DNA from: a virus
IMG/VR virus record: IMGVR_UViG_3300032020_000016
Location: 1-44,636 of that record
Strand: one strand, 5' to 3'
DNA length: 44,636 nt
The notes beneath the pieces are model-generated. The model was not told where the DNA came from. It worked only from the letters and a program-made list of their open reading frames with translations, and did not search any database. Positions 2,552-27,356 of this stretch are shown here, in pieces (the stretch's first letter is position 1; every line of letters begins with the position of its first letter). The translations under genes and the position numbers were made by a program.

Positions 2552-3514
2552 CTAGTATCCGCTCGTGGCATTCTGAACGTCCACCCATGCCAACCCGCTC
2601 GACGTGTCGTAACGTGCGCGCCAGCTCACCCGCTCATACAACAGCCCGGGCGCAACCGGCAAGGCATATTCCGTCAAATCCACGAGCGGAAAGTTCAGTT
2701 TCACGTAATAGGCTTCGTTGCTGAACACTGCCGTGCCCCTGAACGTAAACGCCAGCGCCTTCGTGGCTTGGGCCTTGTAAGCCCCCAGGTGCAGGCTGTC
2801 CGCCACCAGCCTGCGGTAACTACCTTGGATGGCTAGCCTGTCGCTAGTCAACGCGGAGGGCGTTCCCGATGATGCGCTCGAAAGCAGCGGCTGGATGTTG
2901 CGCGAGAATTCCACGTCCATGTCTGTGACCGTTGTGGTGGCCGTGTCCAGTGTGCAATGCCAGCCGCCGTAGCCGAGTGCATCGTCGATGTTATACGAAG
3001 CGCTCGACGCAGTCGTGGCGACGTCGTCCTTGCCGACCAGGTCGGCCCGGGCAGTTAGCACATTCGCCTCGCCCTGCGCCATGCTCAGCGCAAGCCGGTC
3101 CACGCAACACCCGCGATACCGGTAATTGTAGGCGCCGCGATTCACCTCGACCGTAAGGCTGGGTGGCGTCACCGATGCCACCGCATCCTCATCGAACGAG
3201 AACGTGTGCTTGTAAACGGAGCCGGTGATCACCTGCGTCATGCCCTTTGAGCCGAACACGCTCCACAGCAGGTGCGCCAGTATCCCGCCCGCCGACACGT
3301 CAAAGCTTCCGCCGCCGTTGATCGTGGATATGCCGATGCGCCGGCGGCGTTGTGCCAGCATTCCGGCAATCTGGTCCGGGTGTTCCATGCCGATCCGCGG
3401 GTTCATATCGAAATCATTCGCCTCCGCCACGAACAGCACGGGGGCCACGGCCGTCCCCCAGACTGATTCCACCGCAGTCCCAATAGAGGCCAACTGCCCT
3501 ACATAATTAGCCAT
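2552..3514 (-). CDS. Tail tube (major tail) protein
   Basis: The 320-residue protein has the hallmarks of siphophage tail tube proteins: the N-terminal pattern 'IGTAVESVWGTAVAPVLF' (G-x-E-x-x-W-G-T-x-V), followed by alternating beta strands and Ala/Ser/Thr-rich loops. It would polymerise into hexameric rings around the tape measure. It sits directly after the tail terminator-like gene and before the chaperone genes, the canonical position. Start at ATG 3514 with a purine-rich site upstream (CAGGAGATGAGGA). Confidence 0.8.
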   Translation of the reverse strand: MANYVGQLASIGTAVESVWGTAVAPVLFVAEANDFDMNPRIGMEHPDQIAGMLAQRRRRIGISTINGGGSFDVSAGGILAHLLWSVFGSKGMTQVITGSVYKHTFSFDEDAVASVTPPSLTVEVNRGAYNYRYRGCCVDRLALSMAQGEANVLTARADLVGKDDVATTASSASYNIDDALGYGGWHCTLDTATTTVTDMDVEFSRNIQPLLSSASSGTPSALTSDRLAIQGSYRRLVADSLHLGAYKAQATKALAFTFRGTAVFSNEAYYVKLNFPLVDLTEYALPVAPGLLYERVSWRARYDTSSGLAWVDVQNATSGY

Positions 3515-3528
3515 TCCTCATCTCCTGT

Positions 3529-3996
3529 TTACCCCTGAACCTTGTGCCGGACAGTTACCCCTACCGAGACCCGGACATACCAGCCCGTCTCCACGCGGAC
3601 GGCTTCCCGCTGCCCGCTCATGATACCCATGAGGTGCACATTATCTCCCGTCGCAATTTCCGGTTGCACCTCCGCGCGCAGTACGTTCTCGACATTCTCC
3701 ATCAGCGTGTAAGCGTCGTCCAGCGCCGTCGCCGCCGTCCGGTTGAACGTCACGACAATCACCCGCACATTGTAAATGTGCTCGTAGAATGGCCCCGTGT
3801 GCAACGGCAGTTCACTGCCCACGGTCGGGTCGTACTCCACGCTCACGGCCGGCAGTTGCGTAACCGCCAGCCCCTCCAGGTCGCTCTCCGTCGTCACCCA
3901 CTTCCGAATGTCGGCGTACAGGTTCGCGTTGGCCTGCAGCAAGGCCACGATTTTCGCCCGTATCGGCAGGTAGCGAACGCTGGTGTAACTGGGCAT
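3529..3996 (-). CDS. Tail terminator / minor tail protein-like
   Basis: This 155-residue protein begins with a helix (RAKIVALLQANANLYADI) and continues with alternating strands (VSVEYDP..., YNVRVIVVTFN, WYVRVSVGVTV), the mixed alpha/beta layout of tail terminator and tail completion proteins. It starts at ATG 3996, overlapping the previous stop as TAATG. It lies between the connector and the tail tube genes, where siphophages encode the protein that caps the tail and joins it to the head. Similarity is structural and positional only. Confidence 0.6.
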   Translation of the reverse strand: MPSYTSVRYLPIRAKIVALLQANANLYADIRKWVTTESDLEGLAVTQLPAVSVEYDPTVGSELPLHTGPFYEHIYNVRVIVVTFNRTAATALDDAYTLMENVENVLRAEVQPEIATGDNVHLMGIMSGQREAVRVETGWYVRVSVGVTVRHKVQG

Positions 3997-4742
3997 TAGC
4001 CCTCGCCCTCCCGCTCGTATTCGCGCACCGTCCGCCCCACGTCCCGCCGTATCAACAAGCCCGTTTCAATTGCCCGGCCTGCCGCCATCGCCTCGATAGC
4101 CGGTGCAGGTTGCTTCAGGTAGTATTCGTAAGAGACGACCACCGTGGCACTTTGCAGCGCGCCTGCGTCGAGCGCGCGTATGAGCCCGCGAACGTGGTCC
4201 ACTTCAAAGTGGTGCGTTTCGGCGGGGTAGTAGTCTTCCTCGTAATTCCGCCGATCCTCCAGGTAAACCGTCGTCCCGACTAGCACGCGAACGCTGGCAA
4301 GTTTCAGCGCCCCTTTCCCCAGGTGATACCACGTGGACTCATTGTCCGGCATCGTGACGGTTTCGCACCGTGTCACCGTGCCCAGGTCCGCCACCCCGTC
4401 GCGCAGCAGCGCCAACCGCGCATCGAAGTCCTCCAGGAATGCCGTGTCCGGTTCCGCCGCTTCGGCCATAGGGAAAGCGGTTCCGCGCAGCGCATACGCG
4501 ACAGTGCCGATTTTGCTGAGATCGCGGACCCAAGTATTCTCCGCCTGCGATCCGCTGCTGGTGCTCGTCACGCCGAAGGGCACGTCATAGTTGCCAGCAC
4601 GCGCGGCCTCGTCTATCGCGTTGTCCGCCAGGTTCCGGCAGGCCGCCAGGGAAATTGTGTTCGCGCTCGCGTCCGAGATCACCGTCGAATCCAGTTTCGC
4701 GCACAGATAGCGCGCTTCCCAAGCGTAGCTATACTCACCCAT
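3996..4742 (-). CDS. Head-tail connector (adaptor) protein
   Basis: The 248-residue protein begins with a small helical domain resembling phage adaptor proteins (gp6/gp15-like), in which a tyrosine-rich start precedes several short helices (SLAACRNLADNAIDEAARAG). The remainder is beta-rich and ends with a basic-acidic tail. It overlaps the end of the large glycosyltransferase gene by 8 bases and the next gene by one. Position between head and tail genes supports a neck role. The domain match is weak. Confidence 0.55.
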   Translation of the reverse strand: MGEYSYAWEARYLCAKLDSTVISDASANTISLAACRNLADNAIDEAARAGNYDVPFGVTSTSSGSQAENTWVRDLSKIGTVAYALRGTAFPMAEAAEPDTAFLEDFDARLALLRDGVADLGTVTRCETVTMPDNESTWYHLGKGALKLASVRVLVGTTVYLEDRRNYEEDYYPAETHHFEVDHVRGLIRALDAGALQSATVVVSYEYYLKQPAPAIEAMAAGRAIETGLLIRRDVGRTVREYEREGEG

Positions 4743-7689
4743 TGACCGCCTCCGTCACCGTCGCCACCGGCGTCGCCTGCTCATAGGCAAACGTCTGCAC
4801 GTATGTCCCCTGCTGGAACAATGACCGCCCGATCTCTGCGAAAATCTTCTGCGCCTGCTCCGCGCTTCGCATCGTGCGGCGAATCGTCCTCGCCGCCCCG
4901 GGATACAGCCCGCGGTCTATGCGTGCATTCACCTCCACCGTAATGCCCTGCTGCTGAAGCGCGCAAGCCAATTCATACCAGCGTTCGGAATGATCGCGCA
5001 GTGGGCCGCCGTCATTCGCAAAATGCTCCTCGTGAATCTTGCAGGCTTCGGCGCACTCGGCCGCCGCTTCCGCATTCAGTTGTCCATGCACCGCCGCGCG
5101 ATAGCGCGCCGCCTGCGCCAGGTCGCGCTCCCAGAACAGTATCCCGATCTGCCGATCCGGGTATTTCTGCCGATCTTTTCGCAGCACCGGCAGGTTCCGC
5201 AGGAAACGCTGCTGCCGCTTCTGCTCGTTCACGTAGCCGTCGTGGATTATGTTTACGTCGCTGAGCAGGATCACCGGCTGAATGCCCTCATTGATTTTCG
5301 TTTCGGGGTGCTCGTGCACCGCCCCGAAGAACCGAATCCCGCAATGGTTCCGAAACAGCCGCACCGGCAGGTCCGGCTCCATCTGAATGTCTATCGCGTG
5401 ATGCCGCTGGTAGATCATGTAACCCTGCCAGCAGTTCGCCCGCAGATACTTCCCGACGTTCCCGACCTCCCCGTCCGGCACGTATTCGTCCGTGTCTATC
5501 CACAGAATCCAATCGCACACGGCCCGATCCACGGTCTGATTGCGAGCGGCCGCGAAGTCCGGCAAACCGTCCGCCTCCAGCCAGGGCAAGTCGAAATAAC
5601 AGTCGTCCTTTAGTCGGTACTGCTCGGCGATCCTGCGCGTCTCCGGGTTGTCGTCGGTGAACCCGATGACCAACTGGTCCGCCACGGACCGGATGCTTCG
5701 CAGGCAGCGGTGCAAACTGCCGGCGGCTTCATTCCCTCCGCAGATGATGCACACCGAAAGCGTCTGCCGGGGAATCCGCAGCGCCTTGCGGGCGGCGTTG
5801 TATTTCCCGACCGGCTTCCCATTTGGCTGGTAGAACAGAACCCAATTCCCTACCATGTCGCCGCGCGAATTGAATCCCGCCTCCTGGTAGTGGAACTCCA
5901 GGTTATCCTGCGTCCCGAAAACGTCGTATATGTCGCGCTCACCGAAGGACCTGAGATGCACGTTCGGCAATCGCTTTTTCTCGTTGTCGCCCCAAGAGGT
6001 GAACTCCCAGGGTCCGTGCGGCACGGTCGCAAAAACCCAGCCGCCGGGCTTCAACGCCCTGTGCAATTCTTCCAGATAGGCCTCCAGTTCCGGCACATGC
6101 TCGAACAATTCACCCGCCCAGATGGCATCGTAACCGCTGAGTCCGCGAAGGTTCTCAACCACATAGAAGCGCAGGTTCTCAGGATGTTTGGCATGTTTCA
6201 CGGCGCGCTTCTTTGCGGACTTCACCGCTGTCGTCGAAATATCCACGCCGTCAATTTGCCAACCGGGATGCGCGTTGCTGAGCGCTATCGCCTGCCGGCC
6301 GTCCCAGCAGCCCGCGTCCAGAATCAGCGCTTCTTTCGGCAGCCGCTCCGCCATCTTTGCAGCCGCCAAATCGTAGCGCGGGCACTTGTGGCTTTCATTG
6401 TTTGGCAGCACCGCGCGCGCCAGGCGTTCATATGCGTCCGCATAACCGCGCCGCGATTCGACCAGTTTCTTCTGCTCACTTTTGACACGTTGCGCAACCG
6501 GCAGCACACCCTCGATTTCCGTTGAGCCCGGCGGGAGTGCCAATTTATCCTCGGTATAGATCATGTGCCAGGTCTTCGCAGCGCTCTTCTCCGTCAGCCC
6601 GGCCTCGAAGAGTTGCTGCCATTCCTCGGCGATCCCGCGCCAGGTGTAATGATTGTACGCTCGCGCCCGCCCCTGCTCGGAAAGGCCCATCCAGGCGCTG
6701 GTGTCCGAACCAAGGAGTCGCTGCAGGCCCTCAATGTAGGCTGCAATATATTCCGGCGAACCCGGTATGCCCGGAATCAGAATGCCCCCTGGCGCTCCCC
6801 GCAGGTCCGGCTCCATTCCCACCGTTTCCTTCAGCGCGCAGTACGCGCTCGCCACCACCGGCGTACCGCACGCCATCGCCTCTATCGCCGCGATGCAGGA
6901 GATTTCCGGGAACGTCGAGGGATATACGAGCGCTTTGCTCTGTAGCAGTTCGCGGTAGAGTTCAATCTTCGTCAATGCACCCGCAAACCGGATCCCCTCA
7001 AGCGCCTTCACGCGGCGGTCTATCTCCGCCAGCAGCGGTGCCATCTGTTGGTCAGCCGCCGGGTGCTCGTAACTGCATAGGACCAATTCCAGGTCCGGCA
7101 CGGCCTTGCGTATCTGCGGCCACATGTCCAGCAGCACTAGTAGTCCGCGCTCCGGCCGGCTGATATACATCACTTTGTGATCACGCTTGTCGCGTTCTAA
7201 TCTCCCGCCATCACCTACCAGGTCAGGGTCATACCCATTTCGCGTGACCATGAACGCCGAGGGTGGAAGGCCGAGCATATCGGAATACTGCTTGCGGTGG
7301 AACTCGCTCAACACGAACCACCAGTCCGTTTTCCAACTCGAACCGCGCAGGTACTCGGCGCTTTCCCGCGTCGCTATATCGTGGCACCAGAGCGCGTGCC
7401 CGCCCGCTCGCAGCATCGGCACGACCGCCGTGGCGAAGCGCGAAACGACGAGCACATCCGTGTCGCCGACATGTGTGTAAATGGGGTACTGATCAACGCT
7501 GCGATAGACCACGCCATCGTATTCGCCGGGCCGCGGGCATTCGCAGAACACCTGCACGTCATTGCCCAGGCCGGCGAGCTCGCGCGCCATGAAGTAGAGC
7601 GCCGATTCCGCGCCGCCCAGCGCCTTTTCGTGAATGGTCTGCCCATCGAAAGGCAGGCCCCGCGTGAAGAATGTTATGCCGAGTTTCAT
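4735..7689 (-). CDS. Trifunctional GT4 glycosyltransferase - SAM methyltransferase - GT2 glycosyltransferase
   Basis: This 984-residue protein fuses three enzyme domains. Residues 1-380 form a GT-B (GT4-like) glycosyltransferase: N-terminal GGAESALYFMARELAGLG, then the catalytic FPE-x7-E motif near 260-270 followed by CGTPVVAS. Residues 430-620 form a class I SAM-dependent methyltransferase (motif I DAGCWDG at about 458-464, acidic GVDIS at 481-485, then LKPGGWVFATVPHG). Residues 640-840 form a GT-A/GT2-like glycosyltransferase with WIDTDEYV, the DxD metal-sugar nucleotide site at 732-734. The C-terminal 150 residues are helical. It lies in the structural operon between capsid and connector genes, overlapping the latter. 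It probably builds and methylates a glycan on a virion component; the acceptor is unknown. No frameshift is visible. Confidence 0.85.
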   Translation of the reverse strand: MKLGITFFTRGLPFDGQTIHEKALGGAESALYFMARELAGLGNDVQVFCECPRPGEYDGVVYRSVDQYPIYTHVGDTDVLVVSRFATAVVPMLRAGGHALWCHDIATRESAEYLRGSSWKTDWWFVLSEFHRKQYSDMLGLPPSAFMVTRNGYDPDLVGDGGRLERDKRDHKVMYISRPERGLLVLLDMWPQIRKAVPDLELVLCSYEHPAADQQMAPLLAEIDRRVKALEGIRFAGALTKIELYRELLQSKALVYPSTFPEISCIAAIEAMACGTPVVASAYCALKETVGMEPDLRGAPGGILIPGIPGSPEYIAAYIEGLQRLLGSDTSAWMGLSEQGRARAYNHYTWRGIAEEWQQLFEAGLTEKSAAKTWHMIYTEDKLALPPGSTEIEGVLPVAQRVKSEQKKLVESRRGYADAYERLARAVLPNNESHKCPRYDLAAAKMAERLPKEALILDAGCWDGRQAIALSNAHPGWQIDGVDISTTAVKSAKKRAVKHAKHPENLRFYVVENLRGLSGYDAIWAGELFEHVPELEAYLEELHRALKPGGWVFATVPHGPWEFTSWGDNEKKRLPNVHLRSFGERDIYDVFGTQDNLEFHYQEAGFNSRGDMVGNWVLFYQPNGKPVGKYNAARKALRIPRQTLSVCIICGGNEAAGSLHRCLRSIRSVADQLVIGFTDDNPETRRIAEQYRLKDDCYFDLPWLEADGLPDFAAARNQTVDRAVCDWILWIDTDEYVPDGEVGNVGKYLRANCWQGYMIYQRHHAIDIQMEPDLPVRLFRNHCGIRFFGAVHEHPETKINEGIQPVILLSDVNIIHDGYVNEQKRQQRFLRNLPVLRKDRQKYPDRQIGILFWERDLAQAARYRAAVHGQLNAEAAAECAEACKIHEEHFANDGGPLRDHSERWYELACALQQQGITVEVNARIDRGLYPGAARTIRRTMRSAEQAQKIFAEIGRSLFQQGTYVQTFAYEQATPVATVTEAVNG

Positions 7690-7702
7690 GCTATCCCCTT
7701 GC

Positions 7703-8035
7703 CTAGAGTCCGCTTTCGCACCGGGTTTGCTGATTCCTTGGAATTGGAATATGTGTAACGGGCCAGAACATCAGTGGCCCGACTGCCCCGCATTCCGGGC
7801 ATTCACCCGTGGGCGTCCATGTGCCGCATTCCGTAATCCGCCATTTGGGATGCGCACACCGGGGCACACAGGTCAATGTAACCGGATAGCCGCGATCTTC
7901 TTGTAGAAGGTTTGCATCATAGGGATTTATAGGCTCCTGGAGCCGCAGACGAATTGTCATCTCCTGTCCTGAAATCCCAACGGTTGCCACCTCTGTCCGT
8001 ATCTTGCATTTCACAACCCTGCCATTTATTCTCAT
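7703..8035 (-). CDS. Small protein between capsid and glycosyltransferase genes
   Basis: The 110-residue protein has an N-terminal beta region and a cysteine cluster (CVPRCAHPKW, then ECGTW, CPECG) that could bind zinc. No family is recognised. ATG 8035 lies just after a strong hairpin (8046-8076), whose distal arm abuts the Shine-Dalgarno (GGAGG). Its place after the capsid gene might suit a head decoration or a processing factor, but that is a guess. Confidence 0.6.
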   Translation of the reverse strand: MRINGRVVKCKIRTEVATVGISGQEMTIRLRLQEPINPYDANLLQEDRGYPVTLTCVPRCAHPKWRITECGTWTPTGECPECGAVGPLMFWPVTHIPIPRNQQTRCESGL

Positions 8036-8045
8036 CGTTCATCCT

Positions 8046-8076
8046 CCGGGAGATTGCCGGGCAGGCGATCTCCCGG
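8046..8076. repeat. GC-rich hairpin directly upstream of an RBS
   Basis: CCGGGAGAT (8046-8054) pairs perfectly with ATCTCCCGG (8068-8076), and three more internal pairs are possible. No U-tract follows on either strand, so it is not an ordinary terminator. It lies upstream of the gene starting at 8035 and could pause RNA polymerase, be processed, or limit translation after the very highly expressed capsid gene. Confidence 0.6.
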
Positions 8077-8167
8077 CGTCCACGGCCCGGGACTCTTCGC
8101 CGTCCCGAGAGGGGTATTCCGTGTCTCTTGCTCTCGCCTGCCCGTATTTGCCATCGGGCCCACCGGG

Positions 8168-8204
8168 GGCGGGGCGCTGCAAGGAGGCAAACAGCCCCCC
8201 CGCC
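8168..8204. repeat. Second hairpin in the capsid 3' leader
   Basis: GGCGGGG plus GCTG on one side (8168-8179) matches CAGC plus CCCCGCC on the other (8192-8204), with one mismatch between the two blocks. It begins about 30 bases after the capsid stop codon. The 200-base gap 8036-8236 holds this hairpin, the one at 8046 and a short ATGA-coupled reading frame (8032-8154, 40 codons) without a clear RBS. Confidence 0.5.
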
Positions 8205-8236
8205 TATTGTCCAATCCCTGTTGTCCTGTTCGTGGG

Positions 8237-9379
8237 TTACGCGCCCATGAACTTGGCGTGCGCCAGCGGGTTGCGGAACTCGACCGTGTATTCTCCCACG
8301 ATCATGCCCTTCTCGCTGTCGCCTGCCTTCGCCAGGTCATCGTATTGGAACGACCTGCCGATGACGGGAACGACCTTTACTCGGGTTGTATCCAACCCGA
8401 GCAGGCTGATCCCTTCATTCGTCAGGTATCGGTTCATCAGCACCTGCTGAACGCCGAAGTCGCCCTCGTACACGCTCACCAGGGACTTGAACCAGTTCTC
8501 CCGCGCAGTCGGCGAATCAGTCTGGATGATCTGCAAGCGGTTGGCATTCCAGGTGGACATCAGCCGCTTCACGAGCGGCCGCACGACTAGCAGGTTGATG
8601 TTGCTGCTGCCTTGGTCGTAGGCCAACTGGAGCGTAGAATTCATCGCCGATTCGGTGAACGTCGCGTGCGAGAACACGTTCGTGCTGATGCTGGCCGCGA
8701 TGCCGGCCATGAAACGCCGTGCCGTGGCGGTGCCGATGGTGTTCGTCAGCGACCGGCCCATGAGGATGGACTTTTCCAGTTCGCGCATTTCCTCTCCCAG
8801 GCGGTTCGCCTTCTGATAGGCAAATTCGTCGCCGCCTACCGCGAAGCCGCCAACGGCCTGCTCCGTCCCGCTGATCTTTATGCCGATCTCGAAAATCTGG
8901 GCATAGTTGGAGCAGCGGGCCCGGTCCTGGCTCCAGTCCTCATCGACATCAGCGCCGCTCAGCGCCGCGTTCCCGATCACCTCGATGACGGCGCCTGCCG
9001 CGAACGATGTTGCGGTAGTGCCGCCCTGCGCTCTGGTGACGTACAGCGTCGTGGCATCTACCGAAGTCACCAGACAGACTTCGTTATAGACGCCACTGCC
9101 GAGACGCACGAGATCGCCGACCCGGAACATAGTTGTCGTTTTCGCTGGCTCGATGCCTGTGCCTGTGGCCGTAGAGGCCACGTTCGATGACATCGTTGAC
9201 GTGTGCGGCCGCAGCGTGTCCTCGATCCACTCGTGCTTCACGCTGGTCGCTGGACGCTCACTAGTGCCCAGAATGTCCAGCAGTGGCGTGTCCTTGACTG
9301 CCAGCATAGCCACTATGTCTGACAGGTCTTCCGCATGGCTGTCCCAATCGCTGTAAACAGCCCTTCCGTTGAAAGCCAT
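8237..9379 (-). CDS. Major capsid protein (SU10/DUF5309-like)
   Basis: The 380-residue protein resembles the SU10-type major head proteins (HK97 fold): N-terminal DLSDIVAMLAVKDTPLLDIL, then HEWIEDTL, a central insertion of beta strands, and a C-terminal domain with NLLVVRPLVKRLM and YLTNEGISLLG. It follows the scaffold gene, as expected. It self-assembles into the icosahedral shell. No prohead protease is apparent nearby, and the N-terminus keeps no obvious cleavable delta domain, fitting a separate scaffold. Confidence 0.85.
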   Translation of the reverse strand: MAFNGRAVYSDWDSHAEDLSDIVAMLAVKDTPLLDILGTSERPATSVKHEWIEDTLRPHTSTMSSNVASTATGTGIEPAKTTTMFRVGDLVRLGSGVYNEVCLVTSVDATTLYVTRAQGGTTATSFAAGAVIEVIGNAALSGADVDEDWSQDRARCSNYAQIFEIGIKISGTEQAVGGFAVGGDEFAYQKANRLGEEMRELEKSILMGRSLTNTIGTATARRFMAGIAASISTNVFSHATFTESAMNSTLQLAYDQGSSNINLLVVRPLVKRLMSTWNANRLQIIQTDSPTARENWFKSLVSVYEGDFGVQQVLMNRYLTNEGISLLGLDTTRVKVVPVIGRSFQYDDLAKAGDSEKGMIVGEYTVEFRNPLAHAKFMGA

Positions 9380-9409
9380 TTCCTTTTCTCCGAATGTACC
9401 CCGAGCCGG

Positions 9410-10036
9410 CTACTTGCCCTCTCGCCGTTTGCGGATCAGGGCTTCGCGCAGTTTTATGTACTCCCGTTGCGCCTCCGGGTCCGTCTTCCCTCGCTCGTGC
9501 AACTCGGCCAATCGCTTTTTCTCGGCATCCTCAGTATGTCCGGGGTCGGTGATGGTGCCTTTTGCGGTGTTGGCAAGTTTGTCAGCGAGCGGTTTCATTT
9601 CCTTTTCGACGAAAGCGTCGAAGGAATCGAACCCTTCAGGCAGGATTGCTGGCACCAGTTTCTGCAATTCCGCCGGCAGTTGATGCTTCGCAATCGCCTC
9701 AGCGCGAGCCTGTTTCGTCTCCGCATCTTTCGCCTTGGCCTCAGCCGCCTTCACCGCGGCCTCTGCCTCTTCCGCGCGCTTCCGCGCGGCTTCGGCCTCC
9801 TGCTGTGCCCGCTGCTCTGCAGTCTGTTGCTCAGTCCGCAACTTCTTCAGAGCGGCTGCAGCATCGTCAAGCGACTCGTCGCCGAGGAGTTCGCGCAGTC
9901 GCTTGTCGTTCTCCATCTTGGCGTTTGTCAAGGCAGTTGCCAGTGCCTCCTCGTGATTCCGCTGTTCGCGTGCCAGGCGCTCGCTTACGATCCTGTCCAC
10001 GTCCGCCTGTGTGAGCGTGGTCTTGTCGTCAGCCAT
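9410..10036 (-). CDS. Capsid scaffolding protein
   Basis: This 208-residue, highly charged protein has the typical scaffold opening LTQADVDRIVSERLAREQR, a long coiled coil (residues 45-115, rich in Ala, Glu, Lys and Gln) and a basic C-terminal tail (YIKLREALIRKRREGK), the part that usually contacts the capsid protein. It sits between portal and capsid genes. ATG 10036 has a strong Shine-Dalgarno (GGGAGG). Confidence 0.85.
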   Translation of the reverse strand: MADDKTTLTQADVDRIVSERLAREQRNHEEALATALTNAKMENDKRLRELLGDESLDDAAAALKKLRTEQQTAEQRAQQEAEAARKRAEEAEAAVKAAEAKAKDAETKQARAEAIAKHQLPAELQKLVPAILPEGFDSFDAFVEKEMKPLADKLANTAKGTITDPGHTEDAEKKRLAELHERGKTDPEAQREYIKLREALIRKRREGK

Positions 10037-10196: not shown

Positions 10197-11585
10197 CTAT
10201 GGACTGGCATTATCCTGGCCCCCGAATCCCTGCCGGGGCCCGCCCTGCGCTTCCATCATCTGCCGCGTATTCTCAACACTCGCAACACGTTCTTCCTCAA
10301 TGCGCTTGACTTCCTCCACCCAGTCTATCCCGCGTTCCTCCGCGATGCTTTGCCTGCTCTTGATTCCCATTTGTTGCTCGGCTCGCTGCGTCGCCAGCGC
10401 CTCCGCCTCGTCCACCGGCAGAATCGGGTCGGCTACAAAATCGCATTGGTCTGCCTGCTCCTGCCCGAGCAACTTCATGGCCAGGCCGAGTGCCGTTTTC
10501 AGCCCGGCAAAATAATTGCTCCTCATGCGGTTGATTTTCCGCTCCAACGGCATCAGCCGCAGGCGCAATCCATAGCCACTCAAGTCCGCACCCGCCCTCA
10601 GCATCTGCAAAAATAGTTCGGGATACGTGCGCATGAAGCCCGCGTCTATCCGATCAAGCGTTTCGTTCAACCCGCCGATCACGTTGCCGGAAAACTCAAC
10701 CATCTCGATTACACCCTCCGGCGTCGGCACATACCAAACCGTGCTTGCCGCCCGTCCTGTCTCGGTCACCATCCCTTTTTCGAGCGTGCCTTTCTGCACC
10801 CCACGCGCCACATATACCGGATCGCCGTAGGTGCGCGCGGTCTCTAGTAAGAAGGAACCCAATTCGTTGAGGGCATCAAGGCATTCGTGCGCGTTGTGAA
10901 AAGAGGAGAAGCCGAAATCCTCGCCGAGGTCGAGGTTCCGAATGTGAACTATCGGGATCTCACCATACTCATGCGCCCACGTCGCCGATGGTTCCGGCCA
11001 GTCCTCCGGAACCTGCACGGCAACGGCGTTCTTCGTCCACAGTTCCCCGTAAATCTGATTCCCCTCCCCCACACTGTATTCGATCAGGCAGCATTCCATC
11101 TCTTCCCGATTGCTCTCGTTGTAGCGGGGGAAGACTATTTCGGGCTTTAGCACATTGAGCAACACCGGCTTCTTCGGGTCCGGCCTCGGGTTGTAGGCCC
11201 ACTGCCGGTTGTCCACGACTTTGACATAACCATCGCCTGTGAGTGCGCCATAGAGAACCAGCAGCGACTTATGAATGCCGAACTCGCTGTCGGCCCATAT
11301 CTGCTGAATCGTTGCGCTCGCCTCTTCCTGATCGGGATACAATGGCTCCAGATTCTCCCCCATCACCAGGTCCATGTCGGTGTCAACGATCTGCGCGACG
11401 TATCCGAAAAGCGGCCGGATCCGCTGGAATAGCCCAGCCTTCGCCTGCCCCTCTTGATATTGCAAGCCCCGGTAATAGCGCCTGTTCTGGCTGTATCGAC
11501 TGGTGCGGTCATGATCCGAAGTCCGGTCCCGGTACAATTCCCAGAATTTCTCCATCGGATCGTCAATGCGCTGAAAGACCGGCAT
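10197..11585 (-). CDS. Portal protein (SPP1 gp6-like)
   Basis: The 462-residue protein matches the SPP1 gp6/DUF1073-like portal layout: N-terminal RYSQNRRYYRG, IVDTDMDLVMGENL (cf. 'iv...v.y..g.p'), HEYGEIPIVHIRN, and a long C-terminal helical part (ERKINRMRSNYFAGLKTALG) forming the stem and crown. Portals form the dodecameric ring through which DNA is pumped. It follows large terminase by two bases between stop and start regions, as usual. Confidence 0.85.
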   Translation of the reverse strand: MPVFQRIDDPMEKFWELYRDRTSDHDRTSRYSQNRRYYRGLQYQEGQAKAGLFQRIRPLFGYVAQIVDTDMDLVMGENLEPLYPDQEEASATIQQIWADSEFGIHKSLLVLYGALTGDGYVKVVDNRQWAYNPRPDPKKPVLLNVLKPEIVFPRYNESNREEMECCLIEYSVGEGNQIYGELWTKNAVAVQVPEDWPEPSATWAHEYGEIPIVHIRNLDLGEDFGFSSFHNAHECLDALNELGSFLLETARTYGDPVYVARGVQKGTLEKGMVTETGRAASTVWYVPTPEGVIEMVEFSGNVIGGLNETLDRIDAGFMRTYPELFLQMLRAGADLSGYGLRLRLMPLERKINRMRSNYFAGLKTALGLAMKLLGQEQADQCDFVADPILPVDEAEALATQRAEQQMGIKSRQSIAEERGIDWVEEVKRIEEERVASVENTRQMMEAQGGPRQGFGGQDNASP

Positions 11586-11587
11586 GG

Positions 11588-13063
11588 TTACCTCAGACTC
11601 AAAACCCCTGCCTCGACAGGCGGGTGCGCGCCGAAACGCACGAGCGCCTGGCTCATCGCGTCCACCTGGTCATCATGTACCCCGGTTGGGAAATCCGCGC
11701 ACTCGGCCACGAACGCATCCGTCCAGAATGCGCGTCGCGGAATGAATACGTTGCCCGATTCTATCTGCGCACATGCGGCCACCGCCCGGGCGACCTTGCC
11801 CCCCTCCGGGCGAACCGCGATGATGCCGGGAATCTCTCGTTGCAACGACTGAATAACGGCTGGCCCATTCGCCGCATCCTCAACCAACTTTGCCGCCGCC
11901 TTCTTGTGCTTGAACGTCAACTGCCTGAACGCCAACAACGTGCCCGGGAAGTCTGTCTGCGCACGGTACTGGTCGAGCAAGTATTTGTCCGCCCCTAGTC
12001 TGCCCCACACCTGGCCGACCACGTAAGACGAATCCGCCGTCTCCTTGAATGCCATGTCCCAGGATTGCAGGCATTCGTCGAATCGCTGAGGCGGCTCGTC
12101 GTAATACTTCCACCACTCCGTTTTGATGATGGTGCCCTGCGGCGAAACAGGCGAGGCCATGTATTCCGCTTCCCAAGGCATACTCCCAACACCCCGCCGC
12201 AGGTCCGCGAGCGCCTCAACGCTATAACGGCGCGGGCACAATGCCTCGCCGGGTTTGCGGCCCAGGGGGTCCGGCAAGCCCGCCGCCAGGCCGACCGTCG
12301 CGTTCCGCTTGTTGCGCTCGAACTGATCTTCACCCACCGCCGGCAATCGCAACACGGTCCATTCCCGTTGCCCATCGGCAAGCAACTGCCCGCACAGGTC
12401 GCCTTGGTGCCATCGCGTCATGATGATTACGATGGCCCCGCCCTCCCAGATGCGTGGCCGGAACGTGCCGGTGTACCATGCCCAGACTGTATGCCGCGCG
12501 GCATCGCTTTGCGCTTGCAGCCATCCCTCATGTGGGTCGTCAATAATGCCGAGTAGCGCACCTTCGCCCGTGATCCCGCCCTCCACGCCCGCTGCAATCA
12601 TGCGGCCTCTGTGCGGCGGTTGCAGGCGCCAATACTCGCGTGCCCGGCTCGTGTGTTGAGTCTCCCAGCCGAACAGATGGCGAAAGACCGGGCTTTCAAC
12701 GACTTGCCGCGCCTCCTGGCTTTTCCGTGTCGCAAGCGCAGCCGCGTAACTGGTCAGGATGATCGGGTCGTCCGGCCTGCGGCCCAACCAGTACGCCGGG
12801 AACCGCACACTGACCAATTCGCTCTTCCCGTGCTGAGGCGGCGCGAAGATCATCAGCCGCTTGATTTCGCCTGCCATGACTCGGTCGAGATGGTCGCATA
12901 TCAGGTCGTGCGCTGGCTCTCGGATATAGTTCGGAAAGGTGCAAAGCGTGAACCCGGCCAGGCTAGTTCGGGCTGACCTCTCCAGGAGCAGCCTGGTCAT
13001 CCACGCTGGCCGCTCTTGCGATTGCTTCAACGGCCGCTCTTGCGATTGCCTCAACGTATGCAT
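11588..13063 (-). CDS. terL: Terminase large subunit
   Basis: ATPase-nuclease that translocates DNA into the prohead. Visible motifs are the adenine-binding start ARTSLAGFTLCTFPNYIREP, Walker A FAPPQHGKSE, Walker B-like ALLGIIDDP, the coupling motif IIMTRWHQGD, and a C-terminal RNase H-fold nuclease with SWDMAF and VHDDQVDAMSQAL. ATG 13063 has an AAAAGG site six bases upstream and gives 491 residues; ATG 13000 (470 residues) starts closer to the conserved domain but lacks a good RBS. Either start overlaps the small subunit gene (by 101 or 38 bases). Confidence 0.9.
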   Translation of the reverse strand: MHTLRQSQERPLKQSQERPAWMTRLLLERSARTSLAGFTLCTFPNYIREPAHDLICDHLDRVMAGEIKRLMIFAPPQHGKSELVSVRFPAYWLGRRPDDPIILTSYAAALATRKSQEARQVVESPVFRHLFGWETQHTSRAREYWRLQPPHRGRMIAAGVEGGITGEGALLGIIDDPHEGWLQAQSDAARHTVWAWYTGTFRPRIWEGGAIVIIMTRWHQGDLCGQLLADGQREWTVLRLPAVGEDQFERNKRNATVGLAAGLPDPLGRKPGEALCPRRYSVEALADLRRGVGSMPWEAEYMASPVSPQGTIIKTEWWKYYDEPPQRFDECLQSWDMAFKETADSSYVVGQVWGRLGADKYLLDQYRAQTDFPGTLLAFRQLTFKHKKAAAKLVEDAANGPAVIQSLQREIPGIIAVRPEGGKVARAVAACAQIESGNVFIPRRAFWTDAFVAECADFPTGVHDDQVDAMSQALVRFGAHPPVEAGVLSLR

Positions 13064-13523
13064 CAGCAGCCTTTTCCTGTTCCGCCGTCGGCTTCCACGC
13101 GAACTCAACGGGTCCACCATCGGCTCCGGTAATCTCGGTCGCCGTCTTCTGCGGCGCATCCAGCCCCAGCAGTTCGGCCTCCCGCTTGAGTGCCCGAAGT
13201 ATAGTGTCGAGTTTGTCGGCAGGCGTCTTCCAGGCCTCGCGCTTGACCTCGGCGATTTCGGCCAAGTGCCGCGCTTGGTGCCTTTCCACCGTCTCCCTAT
13301 GTTCGCGCGCCCATGCCCTGCGGTTCGCCTGACAATCGCGCGTGATGGTTGCCAGGTCCCAGGGCTGTTGCGTTTCGGGGTTCACGAAGTTCGCTTCCGC
13401 CATCGCCTTCGTGATCTCGCGGGTGCTCATGCCCCTCAGCCTCAACCGCGCCACCTGCAGGCGGCGGTGCGCGATTGTGTCGGCCAGCGCGCTGTTCGGA
13501 TCTATCTTTCCTAGTCCAGCCAT
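12963..13523 (-). CDS. terS: Terminase small subunit
   Basis: The 186-residue protein has an N-terminal helix-turn-helix (RRLQVARLRLRGMSTREITK), a central coiled coil and a Pro/Ala C-terminus. It would recognise phage DNA for packaging. The 3' end contains a short duplication encoding AIARAA twice (about 12998-13045), in the area overlapped by the large subunit gene. It follows the methyltransferase gene by 8 bases, behind an RBS (GGAGGGTAGGAG). Confidence 0.75.
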   Translation of the reverse strand: MAGLGKIDPNSALADTIAHRRLQVARLRLRGMSTREITKAMAEANFVNPETQQPWDLATITRDCQANRRAWAREHRETVERHQARHLAEIAEVKREAWKTPADKLDTILRALKREAELLGLDAPQKTATEITGADGGPVEFAWKPTAEQEKAADAYVEAIARAAVEAIARAASVDDQAAPGEVSPN

Positions 13524-13531
13524 GCGCGCTC

Positions 13532-14779
13532 CTACCCTCCGCCTGCTTCCTCAGCCAACACCGCCTGCCCGCCCGTTTCGGCCTCCCAGCGGGCTATCGC
13601 CACGTCGCAGTAGCGGGGCTCCAGATCCATGCCGTAGCAAATGCGCCCTGTCCGTTCGGCCGCGACAATCGCGGTCCCGGAACCAAGGAAAGCGTCCAGG
13701 ACCAACTGCCCTGGTTCGGTGGCGTTGGAGATCGCCCGTTCGATCAGCACCACCGGTTTCATGGTAGGGTGGAGGTCGTTGGCGATTGGCTTATCATGCT
13801 CCCATACCGTCCGCTCATTCGATGGGCCGTGCCAGCGCGGAGCCTGGCCGCGCTTGAACGCGTACATGAGAGGCTCGTACCAGTGCTTGTACTGGGCGAA
13901 CAGCGCGCCGGCCCCGTTGTTCTTCACCCATACCAGCAGGTTGCGCTCCTGCCAGCCCGTCTCCGCCAGGCAGCCGAGAACGTGGCGCAGGTTCGTGCTG
14001 GCAAACCACAGGTAGAGCGGGGCTTTCTCGTCGCTGAAAGCGTGGGCGAGGGTCAGGCTCTTGACCAGGAGGTCGCAGTACTGCTCTGGCGTGAGGTCAT
14101 CCCAGTAAGCATCGGACGGAGCATCTACGCCCCGCCTGGCCCTGGGGATCCGCTCCTCCTGGGCCGCCCGGCCTCCAACGTAGTTGATCCCGTAGGGCGG
14201 GTCGGTGACCACCGCCTGGGCCAGCTTCCCCGCCATCAGCCCCTCCCAGGAGGCCGGATCGGTGGCATCTCCACAGAGCAAGCGGTGCCGTCCTAACTGC
14301 CACAGCCCCCCGCGCTGCGTACGCGTCACGATGCCCGCGGCGTTCGGATCGGCCATCGCGGCCGCCACGTCGAAGCCGTCGCCCTTGGGCCGAATCTCTG
14401 CTGCTAGAATGGACAGGTCCTCGTCTCTGTAGCCCGTGGCTAGCAACTGCCCGGTCGCATCCTGCTCCTTCAGCAGCGCAACAAGCGCCACCGTGTCATC
14501 CTCCGCCAGGGCGTTGCTCCGATTGTCGATAACCAGGAAGGCTTCAGGGTAAGGGCCGTCATAGACATGGCAGGGAATCTCTGTCATGCCCTCCATCTTG
14601 GCCGCCTCAACAAGAGCATGGCCCGCCAGGACGGTGCCATCGGCCTGAATCACTACGGGCTTCTGTATGCCGTGGATGCGCAGCGAATCCCGAAGCACCG
14701 CCAGCTGCGACTCAGGATGCCTGCGGTAATTCTGGGGATGCGGCCGCAGGCTGGAGACTTGCCTCAACTCAATTTTCAT
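13532..14779 (-). CDS. ParB N-domain / DNA methyltransferase fusion
   Basis: Residues 1-95 are a ParB/Srx-type N-terminal domain (SLRPHPQNYRR, ...LAGHALVEAAKMEG). The rest is a DNA amino-methyltransferase of beta order: catalytic DPPY at 193-196, SAM-binding FLGSGT at 364-369, and a target-recognition part between them. It would methylate adenine N6 or cytosine N4 at an unknown site, probably guarding phage DNA from restriction. ATG 14779 begins at the ParB domain; an in-frame ATG at 14824 would lie on the terminator side. It heads the leftward packaging operon. Such fusions are common in phages. Confidence 0.85.
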   Translation of the reverse strand: MKIELRQVSSLRPHPQNYRRHPESQLAVLRDSLRIHGIQKPVVIQADGTVLAGHALVEAAKMEGMTEIPCHVYDGPYPEAFLVIDNRSNALAEDDTVALVALLKEQDATGQLLATGYRDEDLSILAAEIRPKGDGFDVAAAMADPNAAGIVTRTQRGGLWQLGRHRLLCGDATDPASWEGLMAGKLAQAVVTDPPYGINYVGGRAAQEERIPRARRGVDAPSDAYWDDLTPEQYCDLLVKSLTLAHAFSDEKAPLYLWFASTNLRHVLGCLAETGWQERNLLVWVKNNGAGALFAQYKHWYEPLMYAFKRGQAPRWHGPSNERTVWEHDKPIANDLHPTMKPVVLIERAISNATEPGQLVLDAFLGSGTAIVAAERTGRICYGMDLEPRYCDVAIARWEAETGGQAVLAEEAGGG

Positions 14780-14826
14780 GGTCGGTGCCGGGCTATAATT
14801 GCTGCATTGCATACTGCTGCACAATG

Positions 14827-23580: not shown

Positions 23581-23770
23581 ATGTCTCCTTGTGTAGGCGA
23601 GGGCGGGCCGGATTCCCCACCCGGCCCCTGAAGTCATCGGGATACGTTAGGCAGTTAGCATCCCGTGCCTTATATGCGCTCAGATGCTCAGGGCTTGCGT
23701 TACCGCAGAGGCCCCTCTGACAGCCCTTACCCGGTGCTGCCACGCCGCCGCCCTCGCCCGTCATTCTCAT
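23567..23770 (-). CDS. Possible 67-residue protein after SbcC
   Basis: Starts at ATG 23770, overlapping the SbcC stop (ATGA), with an early TGEGGGV motif shared with two other ORFs. The middle and end look protein-like (SAYKARDANCLTYPDDFRGR). Unknown family. Confidence 0.4.
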   Translation of the reverse strand: MRMTGEGGGVAAPGKGCQRGLCGNASPEHLSAYKARDANCLTYPDDFRGRVGNPARPRLHKETYANT

Positions 23771-26115
23771 GCCGCTGTGACCTCCGCATGGCTGCCGTCG
23801 GTCCCCTTTGTCACGGCGATGCGCCAGGGGAACAGGTCCTCCAGTTCCTTGACATGGGTAATTACCAGAACGCACCCGAAGCGATCCTCGATCTTCTCGA
23901 CGCACTGGACGAAAAGCATCCGGCCTTCGGCGTCCAACGGTGCGCAGATTTCGTCTAAAACAAGCATCTCGCAACGCGCACCCGCTCGACTCGCCAGCAA
24001 CTCCGATATTGCTACCCGGATCGCCATATCAACCCGCATGGCCTCCCCACCGCTGTAGCCCTCATAGGGCCGATAGCCTCGGTCGTCGCCGACCATGAGG
24101 TCCAGCGTCTCCACCATCGCGCCTTTCGTCTTCGTCTCGCGTTGCGAGCGCAACTGCAGGGTCATGGCGCCGTCGCTCAGCGTGGCAAGCACGTCGTTGG
24201 CCGCGGCCTCCAGGTCTGGCACAGCCTTCTCAATGAGCAGCGCAGGAATCCCGGTCTTTCCGAACGCCTCCGCCAGCACTTTGAGCAACCCTCGGCGCTT
24301 CTCGCTCGCGGCGATCTCCGTTGCCACATTCGCCGCCTCCGCCCGGGCCTTGAGGCAAGCGCGTAACCGTTCCTCCAAGGCGCCGCGCTCCTGCGCCAGT
24401 CTCTCCTGATCCGCCTGGCATTTCTGAATAGCCTGCTTTACCTCTGTCAGTTCGCGCTGAACCATCCCTACCAAGGAATCCCAATCGCGCGCAAGCCCCA
24501 GTTCCTCTTCGAGTGCGTTCCTGCGGTCCGCCAATTCGTGTGCCTGCCTCTGCAACGGCTCTACGTTGGCCTGCACCTCAGCGATCTGCGCCTCCATGCG
24601 CTCGATAGTAGCCATAGTTTTCTGCAAGCCGGGGAGCGCTGCGGCTTCGCGCTTCAATGCCTCATGCCGGGTCGCGTCATACGCCAGCACTCCTATCCAC
24701 TGCTTCAGTTCGCCGATGACCATCTTGTGTTCGGCACCCGGCTCCTGGCCGTGCAACTGCTTCAGTCGAGTCTCGTCAAATGTCCAGGGGTCTGTTTTCC
24801 GCAAGTCGGCCAGGGCGGTTTCAAGCCCTGGCAGTTTTCCCTGCGCTTCCCGCGCCTGCGCGATCAGCGGGCAGGTTGTGCAGAGCTGTTCCGCCGCCTC
24901 GAAGGTCGCCCCAATCAGGGCATCCTGCTCGCTGTCCGGCAGATAAGTATTGAGAAGGGGGAAGTCGCACGTTGCCCGATTGATGGCGCGGCACGGCACC
25001 TGGTCGAGCACTTCGGCCTGCGCGCGCAAAGTGTAAATCTGCTCCTCGAATCTCCCAACGTCGCGTATGTGAGCCCGTTGCGCCTCCGCAATCTGCTTGG
25101 TCAATGTTTCGATTTCGCGCTTGTGCTCCCGAAACGCCGCCTCATATCTCTCCTCCGCGAGTGCCGCCTCGTGTTTCAGCCGATCGTGCTCCTGCTGCGC
25201 CTCCTCCATCGCGGCGGCGTTCGCCTGTGCAGTTTCGGCTTTGGCGACAGCCTCGGCTAGGGCCGGCTTGTCTTGCAGGGTCCGGCGGAGCGTCTCCAGC
25301 CGCGTGGAGGCTTCCGAATACTTTGCCTGCACCTCCCCCAAGTCCGCGGACATCTCAACTAACCGCTGTCGCCTGCCCTTGTCGGCCTCGCGATCCCGGA
25401 TCAGCGTCTGGTTCCGTTGGTCAGCCTCAGCGAGTTTGCCGTTGAGTTCTGCGTAGTGCTCGGCGAAAGCGCGAAGTTCGTTGTCCACCTGGTCGAGTTG
25501 CTCACCCACAGGGCCTTGCTCGCCGGCCTTCTCCACCAGTTCCTCGCGGCGCCGTTGCGCGACTTCGATGCTGGCCTGCACGTCGCGTGTCATAGCCCGC
25601 GCGATCTCCGCGAGCCGGTCGTATCTGCCCAGGCGCAGAATCTCCCCAAGCACGGCCTTGCGCTCGGCCGGCTTTGCCTTGGTGAATGTGCCCGCTTGTC
25701 CCTGTCCGCAGAACGCCGTCTGTCGCAACAGATCGGCATTCATGTGTAGGGTCTGCTCAATCTGCGCCTGGGTTTCCGCGACAGTTTTCCCGTCCAGAAT
25801 CTGCCCGTTGCACTGGAAACTAAGCAGGGTGCTGCCTCCCCCCTTCCGGCTGCGGTGCCTGGAAACCAGATAAGCCTCTGCGCCCAGGGCGAAGGCGAAT
25901 TCAACCCGGCCCGATTGCTCGCCATCGGAGATGATGCTGTCCGCGTCGCCGCGCGTTTGTCCGTAGAGAGCAAATAGCAGGGCGTCGTAGGCCAGAGTTG
26001 ATTTACCAGCACCATTCGGGCCGGACAGTACGGCCAGATTCATGCCCCTGAAATCTATCCGATGGCCACCCCGGAATGAGTGGATGTTCTCAACCACAAG
26101 GGAGATCGGTATCAT
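23767..26115 (-). CDS. SbcC/Rad50-like SMC-family ATPase
   Basis: The 782-residue protein has Walker A GPNGAGKST at 32-40, FCGQGQAGTF (Q-loop like), two coiled-coil arms (about 180-350 and 430-570) around a central CTTC zinc hook (412-415), then YSGGEAMRVDMA (signature) and LVLDEICAPLD (Walker B) near the C-terminus. With the adjacent SbcD-like nuclease it forms an MR-type complex (phage T4 gp46/gp47), which processes DNA ends for recombination-dependent replication. The start overlaps the SbcD stop by 4 bases. Confidence 0.9.
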   Translation of the reverse strand: MIPISLVVENIHSFRGGHRIDFRGMNLAVLSGPNGAGKSTLAYDALLFALYGQTRGDADSIISDGEQSGRVEFAFALGAEAYLVSRHRSRKGGGSTLLSFQCNGQILDGKTVAETQAQIEQTLHMNADLLRQTAFCGQGQAGTFTKAKPAERKAVLGEILRLGRYDRLAEIARAMTRDVQASIEVAQRRREELVEKAGEQGPVGEQLDQVDNELRAFAEHYAELNGKLAEADQRNQTLIRDREADKGRRQRLVEMSADLGEVQAKYSEASTRLETLRRTLQDKPALAEAVAKAETAQANAAAMEEAQQEHDRLKHEAALAEERYEAAFREHKREIETLTKQIAEAQRAHIRDVGRFEEQIYTLRAQAEVLDQVPCRAINRATCDFPLLNTYLPDSEQDALIGATFEAAEQLCTTCPLIAQAREAQGKLPGLETALADLRKTDPWTFDETRLKQLHGQEPGAEHKMVIGELKQWIGVLAYDATRHEALKREAAALPGLQKTMATIERMEAQIAEVQANVEPLQRQAHELADRRNALEEELGLARDWDSLVGMVQRELTEVKQAIQKCQADQERLAQERGALEERLRACLKARAEAANVATEIAASEKRRGLLKVLAEAFGKTGIPALLIEKAVPDLEAAANDVLATLSDGAMTLQLRSQRETKTKGAMVETLDLMVGDDRGYRPYEGYSGGEAMRVDMAIRVAISELLASRAGARCEMLVLDEICAPLDAEGRMLFVQCVEKIEDRFGCVLVITHVKELEDLFPWRIAVTKGTDGSHAEVTAA

Positions 26116-27356
26116 GCCGCACCGCCTTCCAGCGCCTGCTCCACGGCCTGCGCCTCCGCGATCAGGCCGTCGGTCATCGGCGCAAGGTCCGGGCGCTGCG
26201 CGATGTAGGCTCTCAGCGCATCGGCCACCGTTGTCTCCGCGCTCACGTCAACGACGCGGCGGCGCAGAACCTCCGCGCGCTCGATCTCCACCCGCACCTC
26301 GTAAGCGCCGGCGGCTTCAAACGCCCTGCGAATCTCTGCGACCTGGTGCTGCTGCGCCTCGGCAACTTTCACGCGCACGATAGTGCCCGTAGCATCCTCA
26401 ATGGCCGTTCCCTCTTCGTCCTGCCACTCGACTGTTATCAGCCGCCGGTAAGGCGTGGGGATTTCCTCAACGCCCAGTGCCGTACCCCCACCCTCCACCG
26501 CCTCAAGGTTCAGGAGGAGATACCTTTTGCACTCTTCCTCTTCGCCAAAGTCAACGGCCTCGGGGCTGCCGCAGTACGCCATGTTCGCACCGATCTCTTG
26601 CGGCTTGTGAATATGCCCAAGTGCGTAATAATCGAACCCTAGGCTCAGGAGTTCCTGCGCGTTCAGCGTCCAGTCGCCGCCCATGCCCATGAGTCGCCTC
26701 TGCTGGCCGGCCTCCCCCATGTCAACTGAGAAGTGCCCGAGCAGAATTGAAGGAAGTCCAGGCACTCGCTGATCCGCCAGCCCGCGAATCACGTCCATCA
26801 TCTTCTCGCGCACCAGCAGGTTCAGGCCCTCTGGGGTCTGTTTTCGTGCCTCCGGGTCGGCCAGCAGCAGTTGCTTGTTCGGCCAGGGCACGCAAGCGAT
26901 CTGGCAGCGAACTGCCACCTCAATTGGTGGTTCGCGATTGGCAGGCTCAAAATCAAACACCTCAGTCTTTGGCCCTGGGCAATCACAGAGATAAAGAATC
27001 TGCGGCCTGTCCACGACCGTCACGCCCGCCAGGTCATGCAGCAGTTCAACCGCGTGGTGCTCTGCCGGAGCCTTCGGCGCATCGTGGTTTCCGACCAGCA
27101 CGATCACGGGCACGTTTGCTTCGCAGGCCGGCGCGAATGCCTGGTGCGCGAGCCATACCTCTGTCGGCGTCGGCCTGCAGCCGTCGAATACATCTCCCGC
27201 ATGGAGAATCAAATCTGCGCCGCGCGCGATTCCATCCTCGATGGCGAACCGCGCGCAGCGGTATCTGCCCATGAGCGCGGCGTTCAGCCCGGACTCAGCG
27301 TCAATGCGCCCGCCCTGACTCCCAAAATGCCAATCGCCTGTGACCATTATGCGCAC
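26112..27356 (-). CDS. SbcD/Mre11-like exonuclease
   Basis: The 414-residue calcineurin-type phosphoesterase has all metal motifs: TGDWHFG, HAGDVFDG, VLVGNHDAPKA, ILLGHFSVD and LGHIHKPQ. The C-terminal capping domain is helical. GTG 27356 gives a typical MRIMVTGDWH start; ATG 27347, overlapping the previous stop as TAATG, is the alternative. Partner of the SbcC-like gene downstream. Confidence 0.9.
   Translation of the reverse strand: MRIMVTGDWHFGSQGGRIDAESGLNAALMGRYRCARFAIEDGIARGADLILHAGDVFDGCRPTPTEVWLAHQAFAPACEANVPVIVLVGNHDAPKAPAEHHAVELLHDLAGVTVVDRPQILYLCDCPGPKTEVFDFEPANREPPIEVAVRCQIACVPWPNKQLLLADPEARKQTPEGLNLLVREKMMDVIRGLADQRVPGLPSILLGHFSVDMGEAGQQRRLMGMGGDWTLNAQELLSLGFDYYALGHIHKPQEIGANMAYCGSPEAVDFGEEEECKRYLLLNLEAVEGGGTALGVEEIPTPYRRLITVEWQDEEGTAIEDATGTIVRVKVAEAQQHQVAEIRRAFEAAGAYEVRVEIERAEVLRRRVVDVSAETTVADALRAYIAQRPDLAPMTDGLIAEAQAVEQALEGGAA

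Follow-up and report, generated by a model that had tools for sequence, protein, structure and literature searches.

What would a phage make with two glycosyltransferases and a methyltransferase joined in one protein and encoded amongst its structural genes? The question is raised by IMG/VR virus record IMGVR_UViG_3300032020_000016, analysed here over its positions 1 to 44,636 (the window, 44,636 nucleotides), in which a single frame of 984 residues lies between the gene for the major capsid protein and that for a putative head-tail connector. The initial annotation, made from the sequence alone, described the frame as an unusual joining of enzymes that are usually separate and proposed that it glycosylates the capsid or tail, leaving a methylated cap. 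The fusion is real but not unique, as it belongs to a conserved enzyme family of uncultured phages, apparently undescribed, that is widespread in IMG/VR.

Domains of the fusion protein

The frame lies on the minus strand, opening with ATG and closing with a stop codon at 4735-4737, and over the same span the plus strand carries 8 stops. Matches in Pfam, all above the curated cut-offs, were found to Methyltransf_12 (2.6e-16), Glyco_trans_1_4 (1.2e-14), Glycos_transf_1 (2.2e-13) and Glycos_transf_2 (1.1e-7), and PHROGs and NCBIfam agree on the layout: the first third is a GT4 glycosyltransferase, the middle a class I S-adenosylmethionine (SAM) methyltransferase and the last third a GT2 glycosyltransferase. 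Together with an AlphaFold2 model built on an alignment of 48 sequences, and with Foldseek, they uphold the proposed sequence of GT-B glycosyltransferase, class I SAM methyltransferase and GT-A glycosyltransferase within one frame. The catalytic motifs originally picked out (FPE-x7-E, DAGCWDG and WIDTDEYV) are all present and, except at Glu262, are invariant across the 48 homologues.

Sequence and model both point to a retaining enzyme of GT-B fold in the first third, with the EX7E motif and the group 1 signature (PF13692 and PF00534 above cut-off). The E262-x7-E270 pair sits in FPEISCIAAIEA, and Gly25, Gly26, Asp104, Arg178, Arg181 and Glu270 are invariant in all 48 sequences. The closest folds found by Foldseek are those of a methylmannose polysaccharide mannosyltransferase (7qsg, 3.8e-17), MshA, PimA and HepE. 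The acidic residue of methyltransferase motif I is Asp458 in LDAGCWDG, kept in 48 of 48 along with Glu527, Glu530 and His531, and matches to PF08242 and PF13489 identify this Rossmann-type domain as class I SAM-dependent.

The last third has a GT-A fold with a DxD motif and is nearer to GmaR and SunS than to the GT2 enzymes of polysaccharide synthesis. As a single sequence searched against the PDB it matched only GmaR, ThuS (7msk) and SunS. The family profile gave GmaR at 3e-34, SunS at 4e-27 and ThuS at 1e-24, the next family being chondroitin synthase at 5e-10 and the polysaccharide glycosyltransferases scoring 5e-10 or worse. The top six chains in Foldseek are likewise SunS or ThuS, with TarP and TarS more distant. 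The kinship is a distant one, the score of 43.3 bits against the SunS equivalog model TIGR04195 falling below its cut-off of 350. Asp732, Asp734, His763, His792, Glu793 and His816 are invariant (48/48). No transmembrane stretch was found in the fusion protein (maximum Kyte-Doolittle value 1.58), which fits a soluble enzyme.

A family in a conserved slot

A profile of the GT2 third only, made from the window and two distant relatives, was scanned against IMG/VR and gave 331 confirmed stretches, the best 80 of which were retained. GT4 and GT2 share one open frame in 73 of these, and most of the remaining 7 are cut by contig ends or split into two frames. Removal of near-copies left 55 distinct fusions, with the methyltransferase also matched by phmmer in 53. 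Because only the GT2 part was used in the search, the recurrence of GT4 and methyltransferase is independent evidence for the fusion, and recurrence of the colinear arrangement in dozens of independent contigs argues against chance. Members are 27-36% identical to the window protein. The ratio of nonsynonymous to synonymous substitution rates (dN/dS) is about 0.01-0.3 whichever of the three domains is taken, with dS near saturation for many pairs; the fusion is under purifying selection.

With three family members as queries, the fusion was found over 80% of its length in none of the 50,697 annotated phage records, and no published description was found in the literature searched. A viral scan with the whole fusion as a single sequence gave no match, its patterns being too specific, and it was the profile from the GT2 alignment that recovered the family; similarly, a first scan of cellular genomes found no match and a profile scan was then productive. 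Among the 12 best cellular matches, L086-L089, L091 and L096 adjoin phage capsid genes and L090, L093 and L094 adjoin phage tail genes, consistent with prophages or with phage contigs in metagenome-assembled genomes. A search for terminase in the assembled genomes of the closest relatives found no match and was uninformative. In BFVD, A0A6J5T3W3 (1,119 residues, from uncultured phages) aligns to the model at 2.6e-29 over 1,023 columns, with low TM-scores; such long alignments indicate that multi-domain relatives have already been deposited.

The initial annotation had suggested looking for the same fusion beside capsid genes, and it is found there. Upstream sequence exceeds 1.8 kb in 41 distinct loci, and in 34 of these a gene of capsid family phrog_1005 lies there on the same strand, often itself preceded by genes for a maturation protease and a cement protein. 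Downstream, connector, tail-completion or tail-terminator genes follow in 33 of the 38 loci with more than 3 kb, and tail tube in 23 of the 38. Where the connector follows directly, the gap is -4 to +12 nt in most loci. In the window and L078 the capsid gene is instead of SU10 type, with the gene order unchanged, so that the slot is shared by two capsid families. Known phages of these families can lack the fusion: the annotation of Roseobacter phage CRP-6 shows no glycosyltransferase at this position.

Other genes were also seen in or near the slot. Nine loci (L042, L043, L047, L049, L056, L061, L066, L067 and L024) have an HNH endonuclease gene immediately before the fusion (cluster 12; phrog_59 and NUMOD4 in the member tested), perhaps for a homing endonuclease that targets the fusion slot. 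A radical SAM protein is encoded nearby in L012 (2453-3178, PF04055 3e-11), and cluster 17 members are found in, for example, L025, L026, L039 and L046. L012 has a separate methyltransferase too, and in L084 a separate GT2 and methyltransferase adjoin the fusion. In L039, L080, L079, L014, L050, L052 and L073 the next gene after the fusion is an uncharacterised one of cluster 11, encoding about 173 residues, which shares 14-29 nt with the 3' end of the fusion; its product is a candidate acceptor. LamG/concanavalin-like proteins (PF13385) encoded upstream of the fusion (L060:2972-3685 and L083:408-2450) are possible capsid-associated lectins. In the cultured Arthrobacter phage Kovu (L166), a hypothetical protein of 767 residues (7318-9621) with only a weak Pfam match, to E1_FCCH, is encoded close downstream of the same-family capsid gene.

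The methylated cap does not hold up as a constant part of the product. In the family METHYLTRANSFERASE is optional, GT4 being joined directly to GT2 in L089-L091 and L093 (open frames of about 700-800 residues, L093 partly masked), and L006, L035 and L097 have apparently shrunken, degenerate methyltransferase remnants; the methyltransferase is dispensable. L089 and L091, and in part L090 and L093, are the nearest relatives of the window by their capsid, portal, connector and tail genes. In a tree of GT4 plus GT2 the window protein groups with the set lacking the methyltransferase (92/93) within a 100/100 clade, apart from the other methyltransferase-bearing proteins. The rows without methyltransferase need two changes on the core tree, with a single such clade not rejected (approximately unbiased test, p-AU 0.384), and in the methyltransferase tree the window domain was not placed. 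The RK...PRQT linker is common to the window and the family and is not kept in L089-L091, which favours loss of the methyltransferase over a second gain, gain by recombination being the alternative.

A proposed role and its rivals

The GT2 domain is nearest to protein and peptide glycosyltransferases, no membrane stretch is present and the gene occupies a structural slot, which together point to glycosylation of a virion protein in the cytoplasm. The reading that we favour, with moderate confidence, is that the fusion is a soluble late enzyme glycosylating a protein of the phage's own virion. Such a multi-step enzyme, expressed late, would decorate its target in the host cytoplasm, with the GmaR/SunS-like GT2 most likely priming an amino-acid side chain with the first sugar, the retaining GT4 most likely adding a second, alpha-linked sugar and the methyltransferase most likely O-methylating the product. 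We infer this order, GT2 then GT4 then methyltransferase, from the relationships of the enzymes. Fusion of the three would keep intermediates local, and the position between capsid and connector, with the start of the next gene overlapping the stop, would tie dose and timing to those of the virion proteins. The benefit may be to mask or change the surface chemistry of the particle. Of the capsid or tail glycosylation first proposed, the protein acceptor is favoured by the solved relatives of GT2, while capsid, tail or another virion protein is not singled out.

Several points weigh against this reading. Gene position by itself is no proof of expression time, and with many untested proteins in the GT2 branch a protein acceptor is uncertain. 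The glycan, the acceptor and the activity of the fusion are predictions from sequence and model, and the near-saturated dS counts here as well. No genes for sugar-nucleotide synthesis were found among the window proteins scanned, so that donors must come from the host. Finally, the GT2 of the window lacks the first nucleotide-binding Asp, a loss considered below.

Is the acceptor elsewhere than on the particle? Alteration of host surface glycans or lipids, leading to serotype change or superinfection exclusion, seems rather unlikely. PimA and EpsE, relatives of the GT4, do act on lipids and polysaccharides, and in structure the GT2 has a more distant resemblance to TarP and TarS, enzymes of wall teichoic acid; however, the fusion has no membrane segment, its slot is fixed in the structural operon and coupled to connector genes, and the nearest GT2 relatives use peptide or protein acceptors. 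We consider it unlikely that a different protein is glycosylated, be it an adjoining head fibre or adhesin or a surface protein of the host, for example flagellin, on which GmaR acts. The overlapping cluster 11 gene of the seven loci listed above would suit this explanation, as would the LamG-like or fibre-like genes that adjoin the fusion in further loci, but in the window the coupled gene encodes the connector-position protein and no cluster 11 homologue is there. A capsid insertion as the glycosylation site was rejected, since the prophages L004 and L005, whose capsid gene is followed by nothing that matches the fusion, encode capsid proteins of similar length.

The structure prediction and fold search that the initial annotation had called for recovered GT-B enzymes for the first third and SunS and ThuS for the last. 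The alignment of homologues showed that the GT2 of the window lacks the near-invariant first Asp, which the initial annotation had overlooked. The donor-binding loop, DxGxTD in many homologues, is FTDDNP in the window, and Phe677 is the sole such case of the 48. The donor or the activity of this GT2 may be altered; since the metal-binding DxD, the remaining invariant residues and the frame itself are all intact, an altered donor appears at least as likely as lost activity. Partial decay, with GT2 impaired and only the GT4 and/or methyltransferase working, is improbable, since Phe677, the loss of the usual K(N/D)E motif and the long terminal branch of the window protein (1.07) are set against retention of the DxD, His763, His792, Glu793 and His816, an intact frame, high model confidence and the absence of the KNE motif from some other members too. 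Little fits a role in DNA glycosylation, given the structural-operon slot and a GT2 nearest to protein-modifying enzymes.

Genomic setting, known systems and significance

On the minus strand of the window the genes run in the order terminase (11588-13159), portal (10197-11585), scaffold-like (9410-10036), major capsid, a Cys-rich open reading frame (ORF), the fusion, the connector-position gene, a tail terminator-like gene (3529-3996) and tail tube. The placement of the fusion between capsid and connector, overlapping the latter, was thus correctly described; the connector label comes from synteny and from homology to the same-position gene in relatives, not from a database name. The G+C content of the fusion (0.61, and 0.755 at third positions) is in line with that of the structural genes, so by composition it is not a recent arrival. 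A scan for promoter-like or terminator sites near the fusion gave nothing above shuffles. An exact direct repeat of 127 bases at the window ends (1-127 and 44510-44636) indicates that the record probably represents a whole genome, closed into a circle, of about 44.5 kb (about 44,509 bases). Elsewhere in the window are a ParB-like domain fused to an N4/N6 DNA methyltransferase (13532-14824, phrog_498 6e-101) just upstream of the terminase genes, an SbcC/SbcD-like nuclease pair (23767-27356, phrog_77 and phrog_100) and a Peptidase M15/VanY-like candidate endolysin (34001-34441).

Table 1. Features of the fusion gene and its neighbours in the window (MT, methyltransferase; pLDDT, predicted local distance difference test; pTM, predicted template modelling score).
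Feature	Coordinates	Strand	Evidence
Major capsid protein, SU10/HK97-type	8237..9379	-	PF17236 2.4e-63; phrog_1328 2e-59
Small Cys-rich (Zn-ribbon-like) ORF between capsid gene and fusion	7703..8035	-	weak PF20173 0.0023, NF011481 0.009
GT4-MT-GT2 fusion gene, 984 residues	4735..7689	-	Pfam, PHROGs, NCBIfam; AlphaFold2 pLDDT 86.6, pTM 0.87
GT4 domain, GT-B fold, residues 1-368	6586..7689	-	PF13692/PF00534/PF13439; Foldseek 7qsg 3.8e-17, MshA, PimA
EX7E motif of retaining GT4 (E262, E270)	6880..6906	-	E270 48/48; E262 is E in 46, D in 2
Class I SAM MT domain, residues 437-622	5824..6381	-	PF08242 2.6e-16; D458, E527, E530, H531 invariant
MT-GT2 linker with conserved RK...PRQT (R634, K635, P640)	5770..5823	-	nearly invariant in family alignment; not retained in MT-less relatives
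GT2 domain, GT-A fold, residues 641-868	5086..5769	-	PF00535 1.1e-7; profile and Foldseek to GmaR/SunS/ThuS
Codon 677, Phe in window (GT2 nucleotide-binding position)	5659..5661	-	alignment; Asp in 47 of 48 homologues
GT2 DxD motif WIDTDE (D732, D734)	5485..5502	-	invariant 48/48
C-terminal helical tail, residues 869-984; last ~23 residues predicted disordered	4738..5085	-	AlphaFold2
Downstream gene, head-tail connector by synteny	3996..4742	-	8-nt overlap with fusion 3' end; no Pfam match
Tail tube protein	2552..3514	-	PF18906 1e-20; phrog_290 1e-21

The closest functional parallel is A064R of PBCV-1, in which a SAM methyltransferase, joined to two glycosyltransferase domains, puts an O-methyl group on the terminal sugar of a capsid glycan (PMC9614988). 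Like the phage fusion it unites two glycosyltransferases and one methyltransferase in one viral protein and is predicted to be soluble. It is, however, a protein of 638 residues in the order glycosyltransferase-glycosyltransferase-methyltransferase, its first domain being of GT-A type resembling GT34 and its second a new glycosyltransferase family (PMC9614988), and it acts in an algal virus by extending a pre-existing N-glycan and contains neither GT4 nor GT2. Among the PDB sequence matches listed for the fusion there was no A064R or other chlorovirus chain, no direct pairwise comparison having been made. The two would work alike without being one family, as domain order, glycosyltransferase families and acceptor chemistry differ.

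The closest phage precedent is that of the mycobacteriophages. Three articles (PMC12619734, PMC11256854 and PMC11600133, citing Freeman et al. 2023) state that phage-encoded glycosyltransferases modify capsid and tail-tube proteins, and that cluster O phages have three glycosyltransferase genes and an O-methyltransferase gene. According to these articles the genes are separate, lying in Maravista towards the genome's 3' end, in contrast to the single gene of the fusion, and no Mycobacterium phage was among the tblastn matches to the fusion at 1e-5.

GmaR, SunS and ThuS share a homologous GT2 domain followed by a helical region, but are bacterial, carry no fused GT4 or methyltransferase and have flagellin or bacteriocin peptides as acceptors; in GmaR the glycosyltransferase also carries TPR repeats and an anti-repressor domain (PMC3150276). 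The Manatee Spring phage MW202524 also has homologues of GT4 and GT2 in one protein beside a same-family capsid gene, there as a GT2-TPR-GT4 fusion, with another glycosyltransferase and separate methyltransferases after the capsid gene. Its order is opposite, with TPR between the domains and no fused methyltransferase, and identity is 26-31%. In L003 (MW202497, 3472-8678) the GT2-TPR-GT4 protein is apparently split between the GT4 halves, with a GroEL-like chaperonin gene (PF00118 1.6e-48) between them.

A fuller proposal, which we put forward tentatively as possible but not probable, is that in widespread, undescribed, uncultured tailed phages one polypeptide builds a short, optionally methyl-capped virion glycan, with GT2 priming, GT4 extending and the methyltransferase capping, and that A064R is a counterpart that evolved separately.

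To our knowledge, virion glycosylation by phages is known in few cultured systems, and the fusion would represent this already known kind of activity in an apparently undescribed family. As a single gene it should be easy to co-express with candidate virion proteins, and the natural members with and without the methyltransferase are a ready test of the role of each domain; the fusion may also supply compact enzymes for protein glycosylation. That dozens of diverse uncultured phages have a conserved three-domain enzyme in a fixed position beside the capsid gene suggests that particles may commonly be coated or marked with sugar in nature, and that this may have been overlooked because the phages concerned are uncultured.

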